A stretch of 5,063 nt of DNA, taken from the NCBI GenBank assembly GCA_024278345.1, contig JAJRTK010000127.1, positions 1 through 5,063 on the forward strand, written 5' to 3'. Origin of the DNA: a bacterium (GTDB taxonomy: Bacteria; CSSED10-310; JAJRTK01). The position numbers were made by a program, and so were the translations under genes. This document shows positions 2,333 through 5,063 of the stretch, piece after piece. Under the pieces are notes generated by a model. That model did not search any database. It was given only the letters and a program-made list of their open reading frames with translations, and was not told the DNA's origin. Within the stretch, counting starts at the first letter, position 1. Each line of letters opens with the position of its first letter.

Positions 2333-2562
2333 TCTTCACTCCTGAAGGTCAATAGCCTTTTGGCTTTCGGGCCGCCCAAGCCCCATGGGATGCGAGGTAA
2401 GCCCTCTCCTCTTTCTGTTGAGGTCCGCTCGCGGCAGCGGCAGTCCGTCCGCTGCCACTCGCCCGTCACCCCCTCAAGAGAACGCTCAACACCCTCAAAA
2501 CAGCTCACCTCCAGATTCCCGTGGCAAGACCCGGTTTCTACCTTGGAAAGCTCCACATTCAC
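2329..2562 (-). CDS. Doubtful 77-aa ORF between mannose synthase and gatC
   Basis: No family is recognised. The case for it is positional. A GTG at 2562 overlaps the mannosyltransferase stop as GTGA, a second GTG at 2556 has GGAGG (2567-2563) at a 6-nt spacing, and its TGA overlaps the gatC start as TTGA. It therefore fills the gap exactly between the two genes. Against it, the translation is rich in Arg, Glu and Gly with three Cys (CHG, CRC), it includes a strong hairpin, and its codon choice looks less biased than that of its neighbours. It may be a real small protein, a leader whose translation affects gatC, or chance in G+C-rich DNA. Confidence 0.3.
   Translation of the reverse strand: MNVELSKVETGSCHGNLEVSCFEGVERSLEGVTGEWQRTDCRCRERTSTERGEGLPRIPWGLGGPKAKRLLTFRSED
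2339..2343 (-). promoter_or_regulatory. Strong ribosome binding site of gatC
   Basis: AGGAG read on the minus strand, 6 nt before the TTG codon. It decides the gatC start, because no ATG or GTG is available in frame and a stop codon lies two codons upstream. Confidence 0.8.
2433..2456. other. 8-bp GC hairpin in the gatC leader
   Basis: GGCAGCGG (2433-2440) and CCGCTGCC (2449-2456) form a perfect stem with an 8-nt loop. No T-tract follows on the minus strand (the next bases are GCGAGCGG). It is about 100 nt upstream of the gatC ribosome site, in the 226-nt gap after the mannosyltransferase gene. It could be a Rho-linked terminator, a processing site separating the upstream and downstream cistrons, or part of the doubtful 77-aa ORF. 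I see no recognisable riboswitch or T-box elements here. Confidence 0.45.
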
Positions 2563-3323
2563 CCTCCGCTATTCCGCCTTTTTAGAAGAGCTTGCCGGAG
2601 TCTTCGCTTCCGCCACAAGAGCAGCCAGACTCGGATCACGCCTTCCAAGACGATCCGGAAGCCCATTTTCGACTGGCCAGCCCGGCGATCGACGAAGAGG
2701 ATCGGCGTCTCGTGGAGCTGAAACCCGGCCAGGTGGGCCCTGAACTTCGTCTCGATCTGGAAAGCATATCCTTCGCTTCGGATGGAGGCCAGTTCGATCG
2801 ATTCCAGCACTTCTCTGCGCCAAGCGACGAAGCCGGCGGTCATATCGCGAACCGGCATCCCCAGAATCGAGCGAGCATAAAGACTGCCAAACTGGCTCAA
2901 AAACCGGCGGAATAGACTCCAATTGCCTGTCCCACCGCCCTTGACATACCGGCTCCCCACCACCGCGTCGAACCGCGCCAAAGCCCCCAAGAGCACCGGC
3001 AGGAGAGCCGGATCGTGGGAGAGATCGGCGTCCATTTCCACGAAAGCATCGTAATCCCGGGTCAAACCCCATTGGAAGCCCGCCAAATAGGCCGAGGCCA
3101 GGCCGAGTTTCCGGGGCCGCTCCAAAAGATGCACCTGATGCGGGCGGCGACGCATTTGGGCGGCAATCTTCTGGGAAGTTCCGTCGGTGCTGGCATCATC
3201 GACAAAAAGAAGGGAAACACCCGGAAGATGGCCGAAGATCCCCGCCATGAGCTCATCGATATTCTCGGCTTCCTGGTAGGTGGGAACAATCACCAATGGC
3301 CGACCGGGAGCAGACGGCGTCAC
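2559..3323 (-). CDS. Polyprenol-phosphate mannose synthase (GT2, DPM1-like)
   Basis: This GT-A fold enzyme is predicted to move mannose from GDP-mannose to a polyprenyl phosphate on the cytoplasmic face of the membrane, making a donor for later glycosylation. With a GTG start at 3323 it has 254 aa, normal for single-domain DPM1-type enzymes. Motifs: VIVPTYQEAENI (11-22), FVDDASTDGT (40-49), KLGLASAYLAGF (72-83), EMDADLSHDP with the metal-binding DxD (96-105), GSRYVKGG (123-130), RDMTAGF (159-165) and the C-terminal FVDRRAGQSKM. No C-terminal membrane domain follows, only a basic amphipathic tail. The frame is open up to 3671, but the GTG at 3323 overlaps the upstream stop as GTGA and has AAGGA (3336-3332) 8 nt away; upstream residues show no GT2 similarity. 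The related bacterial glycosyl donors glucosyl- or GlcNAc-phosphate-polyprenol cannot be excluded as the product. Confidence 0.9.
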   Translation of the reverse strand: MTPSAPGRPLVIVPTYQEAENIDELMAGIFGHLPGVSLLFVDDASTDGTSQKIAAQMRRRPHQVHLLERPRKLGLASAYLAGFQWGLTRDYDAFVEMDADLSHDPALLPVLLGALARFDAVVGSRYVKGGGTGNWSLFRRFLSQFGSLYARSILGMPVRDMTAGFVAWRREVLESIELASIRSEGYAFQIETKFRAHLAGFQLHETPILFVDRRAGQSKMGFRIVLEGVIRVWLLLWRKRRLRQALLKRRNSGG

Positions 3324-4363
3324 GACGGGAATCCTTCTGGTGGACCCGTGGAGCCGCTTTCCTGCCGCATCCAGGTTCTGGATGGCGAGCCATCTTGGCA
3401 AAGCGGCCAGGCAGTCCATCTCGACGGCGGGGGCTCGGGCAGCATCGTCGGGTCCTCGGATTCCGGTCCGGCCACCAGCGGCGAGGGACGCGACCGCCCC
3501 TCCATGGGAAGAAGCGCCCGGGCCAAAAGTTGCCGAAGACAGGTGGTCAAATTTGCCTCGATAGAGGGGCGAGAATTGGCGATGAAAAGAAGTGATCTGC
3601 CCAGGCTCCCGTCGGCCGCGGGTTCCGATGGGCCCATGGAAAAGAGGTGGCGCCGCTCTTGCCGGGGCCATCCGTACTGCCGGGCTGCCTTACCGTAGCG
3701 CCGTAAGAACGCCTCCGCAAACATCGGCACGATCTTGTCTTCAAGGCGCAAATGGGTATCCTCCAGGAAGATGGCCAGATCGGGCCCCAGATCTTCGATC
3801 CGCCCAAGGAAGCTCTGGATCGATTCGATGGCGATATGCTTCGGTGGCGAGCTCTTGACCTCGACGTAGACCAGGCGGTTCTCCACCAGGCTGATCACAT
3901 CGTAGTCGCCGCCGCTCGGGCCATTGGTGGCCCGGATTCCGTGGGCGGCGGGGCAGCCGAAGGCGTGGCGGAAAACCTGCGCGACGTACCATTCCAAAGT
4001 CTCTCCGAAAGATCGCACCGCCGGGGACTGTAACCGCCATTTCTCCTTGGCTATGGGCTCAATGATTCGCCAGCGAGCCAGCTCGGAACAGTAAAGGCGC
4101 GCCATTTCCACATCGATATATTGAGCCAGATCCACCGCCGAAAAGGCATGACGCCGCCGAATCACCTCCCGGAGGAAAAGGCGGAAAGCATAGCCGTGGC
4201 ACCTTTGATAAAAGGCCTCGAGCTCGCCATCACTCAACCCGCCGGCGGGAAAAATGAGCTCCCGCGTCTCGTTGCCGCCATACCAGGCCAAGCCACGGCG
4301 CTTCAGGGCAAACCCGATAGCCCGGACATCCCGGGAGAGGTCGCCGGAAAAAGCTTGGCTCAT
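3320..4363 (-). CDS. Winged-helix/PD-(D/E)XK nuclease-like protein of unknown function
   Basis: I do not recognise a named family. With an ATG at 4363 the protein has 347 aa. That start overlaps the upstream stop as ATGA and has AGAGG (4373-4369) 5 nt before it; a longer frame up to 4456 only overlaps the protease gene. Residues about 45-115 look helical and winged-helix-like (SAVDLAQYI, SELARWRII, EKWRLQSP). Residues about 118-215 carry a PD-(D/E)XK pattern: a helix with E124, then GGDYDVI (D153, D155), a beta strand ending in VEVKSS (E168, K170), and a following helix (176-190). A strand reading LLFIANSRPSIEANL (258-272) may close the core. The last 60 residues are Pro/Ser-rich and probably disordered. 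No signal peptide or membrane helix is seen, so a cytoplasmic nucleic-acid-acting enzyme is inferred. No methylase partner is adjacent. Confidence 0.72.
   Translation of the reverse strand: MSQAFSGDLSRDVRAIGFALKRRGLAWYGGNETRELIFPAGGLSDGELEAFYQRCHGYAFRLFLREVIRRRHAFSAVDLAQYIDVEMARLYCSELARWRIIEPIAKEKWRLQSPAVRSFGETLEWYVAQVFRHAFGCPAAHGIRATNGPSGGDYDVISLVENRLVYVEVKSSPPKHIAIESIQSFLGRIEDLGPDLAIFLEDTHLRLEDKIVPMFAEAFLRRYGKAARQYGWPRQERRHLFSMGPSEPAADGSLGRSLLFIANSRPSIEANLTTCLRQLLARALLPMEGRSRPSPLVAGPESEDPTMLPEPPPSRWTAWPLCQDGSPSRTWMRQESGSTGPPEGFPS
3332..3336 (-). promoter_or_regulatory. Ribosome binding site of the mannose synthase gene
   Basis: AAGGA on the minus strand, 8 nt before the GTG at 3323, inside the end of the nuclease-like gene. 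It supports the 254-aa form rather than the longer open frame. Confidence 0.65.
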
Positions 4364-5063
4364 GGCGGCCTCTCGAAACGGCGACTCCCGGATCGCCCCT
4401 GAACCCGAGCCAGCCTCCACGGGCCCACAAGGAGCAAAAGAAACACTGCCAACCACGGGGTTCCGCCAGTGGGAGAAGTTCTCATAAGTTGCGGAGAGGC
4501 GGAAGGCGTGGAGGTCGGTGTCCCGACGATTCCGGTCGCCGTCGGAGTGGGAGTCGGACTACCGGGCGGGATTACTTTCGTGGGCGTGGAGGTCCGGGAT
4601 GCCGTCGGTGTCGCCGTCGGTGTCGGACTCGTCGGCGGAATCGCTTTCGTGGGCGTGGGGGTCCAGGATGCCGTCGGTGTCGCCGTTGGGGTTGGCGCTC
4701 CGGGCTCAAGGCAATTGTAGCAGACCAGGGCGAAGTCCTGGTCCGTGGTGTCCCCTTGGTTGGGCAGGCCGTCGGACGTGATGTTGGCGGCGACGACGCG
4801 GATGGTGAAATCGGCGGGGGAGGTGGGTCCCAGAAAAACAGCCTCGGTGTTGTTCTTCCCGTCGTGGGCCGTGGAGGGCCGAGACCACCCCTCGGCTCCG
4901 AAATCGTTTCCACAATAGGTGGCGGCGGCAGTCTCCACCAGAAGATCGAGGTCGTTGTTCCAGGCCGGCGTTGTTCCCCCCAGACCGTGGCCCGGCGCAT
5001 CGGTCCAAACCAGCATCATGCGGACCGGTTTGGCGGGATCCGCAGCCTGAAGCTCCAAGGTCC
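4360..5063 (-). CDS. Secreted subtilisin-family (S8) protease, 3' part
   Basis: The gene runs off the window, so the catalytic domain and signal peptide are not visible; the leftmost codon seen is an internal Thr. Numbering from the Leu at 5058, residues about 11-115 match the C-terminal beta-sandwich domain of KP-43-type subtilases: LVWTDAPG (16-23), WNNDLDLLVE (33-42), YCGNDF (48-53), DGKNNTEAVFL (66-76), FTIRVVAANI and DQDFALV (106-112). Two Cys (113, 116), with C49, could form a disulfide. Residues 121-190 are a Thr/Pro stalk with two 23-residue repeats. A hydrophobic stretch, WLAVFLLLLVG (202-212), is followed by Arg-rich residues (about 215-230), which suggests a C-terminal membrane anchor or a sorting tail with the body outside the cytoplasm. 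The stop overlaps the next start as ATGA. It could belong to another S8-like protein with the same C-terminal domain, because the catalytic triad is out of view. Confidence 0.83.
   Translation of the reverse strand, partial: TLELQAADPAKPVRMMLVWTDAPGHGLGGTTPAWNNDLDLLVETAAATYCGNDFGAEGWSRPSTAHDGKNNTEAVFLGPTSPADFTIRVVAANITSDGLPNQGDTTDQDFALVCYNCLEPGAPTPTATPTASWTPTPTKAIPPTSPTPTATPTASRTSTPTKVIPPGSPTPTPTATGIVGTPTSTPSASPQLMRTSPTGGTPWLAVFLLLLVGPWRLARVQGRSGSRRFERPP
4369..4373 (-). promoter_or_regulatory. Ribosome binding site of the nuclease-like gene
   Basis: AGAGG on the minus strand, 5 nt before the ATG at 4363, inside the end of the protease gene. Together with the ATGA overlap it decides this start over the more distant in-frame ones. 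Confidence 0.6.
4558..4695 (-). repeat. Two 69-bp tandem repeats encoding a Thr/Pro stalk
   Basis: The copies at 4627-4695 and 4558-4626 match at 57 of 69 bases by eye. Each encodes 23 residues beginning PTPTATPTAS and ending with a TPTK and IPP element. A shorter degenerate third unit (PTPTPTATG) follows towards the C-terminus. The unit length keeps the frame, so copy number can change without breaking the protein. Thr-dense stalks of this type usually hold a domain away from the envelope and are common O-glycosylation targets. Confidence 0.85.

Follow-up and report, generated by a model that had tools for sequence, protein, structure and literature searches.

The CARF nucleases are known as alarm effectors of CRISPR systems. 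In the type III effectors Can2, Card1, and Cdn1 (DUF1887), a winged-helix-like insert is followed by a PD-(D/E)XK core with a catalytic E, [DE]xD, and ExK. Can2 is a nickase and ribonuclease that is activated by cA4; its nuclease domain comprises residues 166–366, Glu276 and Asp278 are catalytic, and E276A/D278A is inactive (PMC7969007). The orphan CARF nuclease VC1899 (PDB 1xmx) is built on the same module and is not tied to CRISPR, and it exhibits no DNase activity in vitro (PMC7969007). Here we describe a large bacterial family that has the same cutting module, is free of the sensor, and occurs outside CRISPR. It is a new CARF-free form of the Can2/Card1-type nuclease module, and the family has so far been unnamed.

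The founding gene resides in a stretch of 5063 bases (the window) that constitutes one complete contig of a draft genome. It occupies positions 3320–4363 of the minus strand, beginning with ATG at 4363 and ending with TGA at 3322–3320, and the intact open reading frame encodes 347 amino acids plus the stop. A sequence-only reading of the window had delimited exactly this frame, which proves to be real. Its assignment as a CARF-less, Can2-like winged-helix plus PD-(D/E)XK nuclease gene draws on the translated frame, homologues, an AlphaFold2 model, and a fold search.

When the window protein was used as a single sequence to search Pfam, PDB (phmmer), and a first set of genome contigs, no family and no PDB relative were recovered. 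A search of relatives yielded two homologues, and a profile of the three sequences matched 21 of 386 genomes sampled across bacteria, one of which (G102) carries a true CARF nuclease. Profile searches also detected the family in 21 of 54 genomes of one further phylum and in 49 of 198 Nitrospirota genomes. This last set represents the phylum of genome G267, and its label was inferred from the position of the G267 member inside the Nitrospirota clade. A total of 270 loci in the GTDB collection are matched by the family profile. The gene is chromosomal and nearly always present as one copy per genome. Members occur in Nitrospirota, Thermodesulfobacteriota/"Deltaproteobacteria," Methylomirabilota, Gemmatimonadota, Nitrospinota, Tectomicrobia, and several unnamed phyla; Nitrospirota, Thermodesulfobacteriota, and Methylomirabilota are environmentally important groups. 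The description of the family as unassigned stands, since no scanned member reaches a Pfam or NCBIfam cut-off, and 14 members gave no meaningful match to NCBIfam or PHROGs. Given that no Pfam or NCBIfam model exists, these genes have probably been left as hypothetical proteins.

It had been noticed from the sequence that E124, D153/D155, and E168-x-K170 follow the order and spacing of a PD-(D/E)XK active site. These residues are indeed found at the claimed places: E124 in a helix (GxTLEW; codon at 3992–3994, minus strand), D153-Y154-D155 in the motif GGDYDV (3899–3907, minus strand), and E168-V-K170 in the ExK motif VEVKSSPP (3854–3862, minus strand). All five are invariant among 80 aligned homologues. 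In a wider alignment of 114 members, D153, D155, E168, and K170 are present in every protein, including the three residues (D155, E168, and K170) on whose conservation the original proposal depended, and position 124 is E in 113 of 114. This alignment therefore exhibits the conserved catalytic E, D, and (D/E)xK that characterize the superfamily, and the conservation of the catalytic residues is far above the chance level. Further invariant positions in the same alignment are R61, P173, P174, R188, D202, T203, and L205. A Pro/Ser-rich C-terminal tail of the window protein (residues ∼287–347; positions 3323–3505, minus strand, just before the start of the downstream gene) is not conserved and has no counterpart in homologues. 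The GC content at second codon positions is 0.70 in this tail versus 0.47 in the core.

An AlphaFold2 model of residues 1–286, built on an 80-row alignment, has a mean pLDDT of 91.9 and a pTM of 0.91. The N-terminal helical region, whose end had been described as wing-like, is a winged helix in this model. Its three-helix bundle (residues 45–54, 58–69, and 85–97) is followed by a β-hairpin wing (residues 101–111), and the domain as a whole spans residues ∼45–111 (positions 4031–4231, minus strand). VIA-align superposes it on the IdeR wHTH (60 residues aligned, 2.4 Å) and on a SelB winged helix (53 residues, 1.8 Å). Residues 120–283 (positions 3515–4006, minus strand) form a PD-(D/E)XK core in which the elements follow the α-β-β-β-α-β order, with helices at 120–135 and 179–192 and strands at 139–146, 153–160, 163–170, and 196–201. 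The predicted structure thus agrees with the winged-helix plus PD-(D/E)XK assignment that had been made from the sequence. Family and fold are well supported, and the protein would in all probability be an active PD-(D/E)XK nuclease.

The sequence-only reading named no specific relatives. According to the fold search, the nearest are the CARF effectors Can2, Card1, Cdn1, and VC1899. The top VIA-align match is Can2 (7bdv; Z 13.8, 193 residues aligned, 3.8 Å), with model residues 14–277 lying on Can2 residues 141–365, followed by Cdn1 (12.7), VC1899 (12.4), Can1 (10.8), and Card1 (10.2). Below the CARF effectors the Z score steps down to 8.2 for AF1548 and 7.7 for McrC, both of which are also among the best fold matches of the core. 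Foldseek likewise ranks CARF effector nucleases first (E 1e-6). Given the boundaries of the Can2 nuclease domain, the CARF sensor is the one part of Can2 that the match leaves out. An N-terminal CARF sensor is absent from the window protein: the match begins past CARF, and only 22 residues precede R23 (family median 37).

A comparison of profiles (hhalign) between the family and ten collected CARF-nuclease proteins gave an E value of 3e-4 but a probability of only 39%, which is a point against the assignment. In this alignment E124 is paired with the helix Glu, D153xD155 with the NExD motif, and E168xK170 with the ECK motif of Card1/Can2, such that D153-Y154-D155 matches Glu276-x-Asp278 of Can2. 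The first family profile by itself also retrieved a CARF-nuclease protein (locus L024). It is very likely that the family is structurally a close relative of the Can2/Card1 module.

There are clear differences between the family and its nearest relatives. Unlike Can2, Card1, and Cdn1, its members have no CARF domain and no CRISPR association, and PF09002 (Card1_endonuc) gave no match at E ≤ 1 to the window protein or to 14 members. They carry GGDxD where the effectors have NExD, an additional conserved PP after ExK, and a DTxLR loop. VC1899, in contrast, has kept its CARF domain. AF1548 (1y88) and the Hjc-type resolvase ST1444 share the PD-(D/E)XK core (Z 8.2 and 6.4), but the match is restricted to that core and does not include the N-terminal winged helix. 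TnsA also joins a winged helix to a PD-(D/E)XK nuclease, with the winged helix placed after the nuclease. The same two domains are joined in the 6mA-dependent type IV winged-helix fusion endonucleases (PMC11037411); neither these nor TnsA are among the best fold matches of the model. At two loci, L144 and L145 (G591:C52 and G609:C30), frames of 288 amino acids match PF09002 weakly (E 5e-5 and 9e-5). These loci are distinct from those of the family members in the same genomes and possibly represent another CARF-free Card1-like group.

We favor the interpretation that the family serves in the maintenance of DNA (or RNA) as a metal-dependent nicking nuclease that lacks CARF and corresponds to the Can2/Card1 effector half without its sensor, and we assign this reading a probability of about 0.5. 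The protein would be a stand-alone enzyme consisting of winged helix and PD-(D/E)XK domains. By analogy with Can1 and Can2, it is predicted to be a metal-dependent endonuclease that is probably dimeric and makes nicks. With CARF missing, activation by cyclic oligoadenylate (cA4) is not to be expected; in its place, the winged helix together with the conserved DTxLR loop might choose the substrate. We infer a role in repair, wherein the nuclease would incise damaged or aberrant DNA, and PolX, which fills gaps as a polymerase and carries a PHP exonuclease/AP endonuclease, could then complete repair together with a ligase. The specific assignment to DNA maintenance has slightly less than even odds, and an RNA substrate is possible because Can2 also cuts RNA.

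The genomic neighborhoods of 79 loci bear on this role. Neighbors are specific to clades and include genes for radical SAM proteins, PolX, YjbQ/LpxK, RarA/RicT/HolB, SurE/TopB, rhomboid, CinA, and LMW phosphatase. Because 57 of 107 same-strand neighbors lie within 25 bases, the nuclease gene joins operons habitually. Genes for RarA, HolB, and topoisomerase III are neighbors of the nuclease in other clades than those with adjacent PolX. Many clade neighbors (radical SAM, YjbQ, LpxK, rhomboid) are non-DNA genes, which counts against a DNA role: a radical SAM gene is located just upstream (position −1) in 19 loci, and a YjbQ gene is upstream in 11, often with LpxK.

The radical SAM protein, which resembles PflA/AmmeMemoRadiSam at scores under the NCBIfam cut-offs (L067:2607-3512 and related loci), directly adjoins the nuclease in several separate lineages. 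Its gene precedes that of the nuclease in Thermodesulfobacteriota, follows it in L007 and L012, and is two genes away in L047, and it often overlaps or abuts its neighbor. This adjacency is a second possible functional link for the nuclease. In five loci, most of them from Nitrospirota (e.g., L117:5195-5386), a short Cys-rich protein (∼63 amino acids, CAVCAWRATCNKKY) is encoded closely behind the nuclease (−28 to 1 bp).

PolX is the best lead to the function of the family and was chosen for co-occurrence testing because of its adjacency to the nuclease gene. It is encoded directly downstream from the nuclease in 11 loci, in two of them with a 4-base overlap. Five genomes of the Nitrospirota family f211 have the nuclease and PolX genes as convergent neighbors 184–568 bp apart. 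Since the arrangement is convergent in f211 and codirectional in Thermodesulfobacteriota, the adjacency probably arose at least twice, with each case being confined to essentially one clade. The co-occurrence counts omit genomes G449, G615, and G102, owing to partial or fragmentary matches and to the true CARF protein in G102. Among Nitrospirota genomes, PolX is present in 41 of 47 with the family versus 48 of 151 without it (raw p 1e-11), and by genus the numbers are 33/35 versus 26/60. Stratification by taxonomic family weakens the association to an odds ratio of 3.1 (p 0.097), so that common descent or lifestyle probably accounts for much of the signal. A strong PolX match is missing for six of the 47 Nitrospirota members, of which four belong to family f270. 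Across phyla, 18 of 20 genomes with the nuclease encode PolX versus 179 of 366 others (p 3e-4, uncorrected for relatedness, with several of the 20 sharing a family). The genome of the window itself encodes PolX, and its seven sampled relatives in the phylum have neither PolX nor the nuclease.

PolX is enriched in thermophiles (PMC12926913). Given this enrichment and the stratified p of 0.097, the association may be due in part to lineage or lifestyle. NrdD, used as a control for anaerobic lifestyle, has no association with the family in Nitrospirota (5/47 versus 17/151), which is a weak control because NrdD is rare in the phylum. The available part of the PolX neighbor list in PMC9226535 makes no mention of such a nuclease. 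A direct partnership between the nuclease and PolX is a tentative proposal that we regard as doubtful. The link offers a concrete partner candidate for bacterial PolX, whose cellular roles remain debated.

The main rival to a role in DNA maintenance is that the same CARF-less nuclease serves as a housekeeping RNase in RNA processing or decay. Can2 accepts both DNA and RNA as substrates for cleavage (PMC7969007), and RicT and YjbQ are among the neighbors in some clades. However, these RNA-related neighbors are no more conserved than the others, and both the PolX, RarA, HolB, and TopB neighbors and the co-occurrence with PolX favor DNA. We consider an RNase of this kind unlikely.

An orphan defense effector is another possibility, in which Can2 minus CARF would still act against phages or plasmids, either constitutively or upon some other trigger. 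The nearest folds are CARF effectors, mostly from CRISPR systems, PADLOC returned weak matches to CARF_PDDEXK and Csx1 as its only matches for 14 members, and the orphan VC1899 demonstrates that such proteins can part from CRISPR (PMC7969007). Against this explanation, no cas genes or obvious defense genes were found among the recurrent neighbors in the 79 loci. In the 198 Nitrospirota genomes, the family also exhibits no association with Cas10 (9/47 versus 26/151, p 0.83) or with Card1 (5/47 versus 13/151, p 0.77). These Cas10 and PF09002 tests led us to reject dependence on type III CRISPR. Inheritance of the family is largely by clade, and the searched phage records, plasmid records, and IMG/VR contigs contain no member. 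A function in defense is thus quite improbable.

The same searched collections gave no support for an origin of the family from phages, plasmids, or viral contigs. The family tree groups by phylum (28 Nitrospirota rows need 3 changes, versus 21.5 in shuffles), which is in line with largely vertical inheritance. A broader scenario is that this is an ancient chromosomal family across many bacterial phyla that acts in a repair pathway with PolX, and that the CARF-free lineage is the source of, or sister to, the effector halves of type III CRISPR Can2/Card1. Taken as a whole, this scenario is speculative and rather unlikely. The sensor-free family does provide a testable story of origin or exaptation for the CARF effectors.

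The nuclease might instead be structure-specific, acting on Holliday junctions, mismatches, or flaps in a pathway of its own that is unrelated to PolX. Two of 14 members match the Pfam model of Hjc weakly (E 0.015), AF1548 and the Hjc-type resolvase are among the lower fold matches, and a superposition of the Can2 nuclease with EndoMS has been reported (PMC7969007). The Z scores of the AF1548 and resolvase matches (8.2 and 6.4) are well under that of Can2 (13.8), however, and no RuvC, MutS, or MutL was recognized among the recurrent neighbor clusters. The probability of this alternative is low.

In the window, the nuclease gene is translationally coupled on both sides, as had been reported. 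Its ATG overlaps the stop of the upstream gene (ATGA), which encodes the C-terminal part of a subtilase and a Thr/Pro linker (4360–5061, minus strand; phmmer to SubHal/KP-43, E 5e-9). This gene is cut by the contig end because the window is a complete contig. A GTGA overlap connects the nuclease to the start of a GT2 glycosyltransferase gene (2559–3323, minus strand; PF00535, E 5.7e-24), a putative polyprenyl-phosphate sugar synthase whose NCBIfam dolichyl/polyprenyl-phosphate transferase matches are under the cut-off. GatC and MFS transporter genes come after it. A new envelope-linked role involving the protease and lipid-linked sugar, to which these overlaps and the presence of LpxK/KdtA/LpxB near some Nitrospirota members might point, has only a slim chance and was rejected, because the subtilase/GT2 pair recurs in none of the homologue neighborhoods examined and neighbors change by clade. 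The other possibility raised from the sequence, that of a local gene arrangement, was borne out, as the pair is seen at this contig alone.

Other features of the contig deserve mention. At positions 4480–4690, tandem Thr/Pro-rich coding repeats (TPTPTATP…) join the C-terminal domain of the subtilase to an apparent hydrophobic C-terminal segment, a layout like that of surface-anchored proteases. At positions 3–585 of the minus strand, two overlapping frames each match the N-6 DNA methylase family PF02384 (E 5e-5 and 0.0085) and appear to be a frameshifted, truncated remnant resembling a type I methylase at the contig end. Positions 1–120 are GC-rich and contain short inverted motifs (e.g., ggcggaggctccgcctcc and gggagcgccgctccc), which may be the reason that the assembly stops at this end of the contig.
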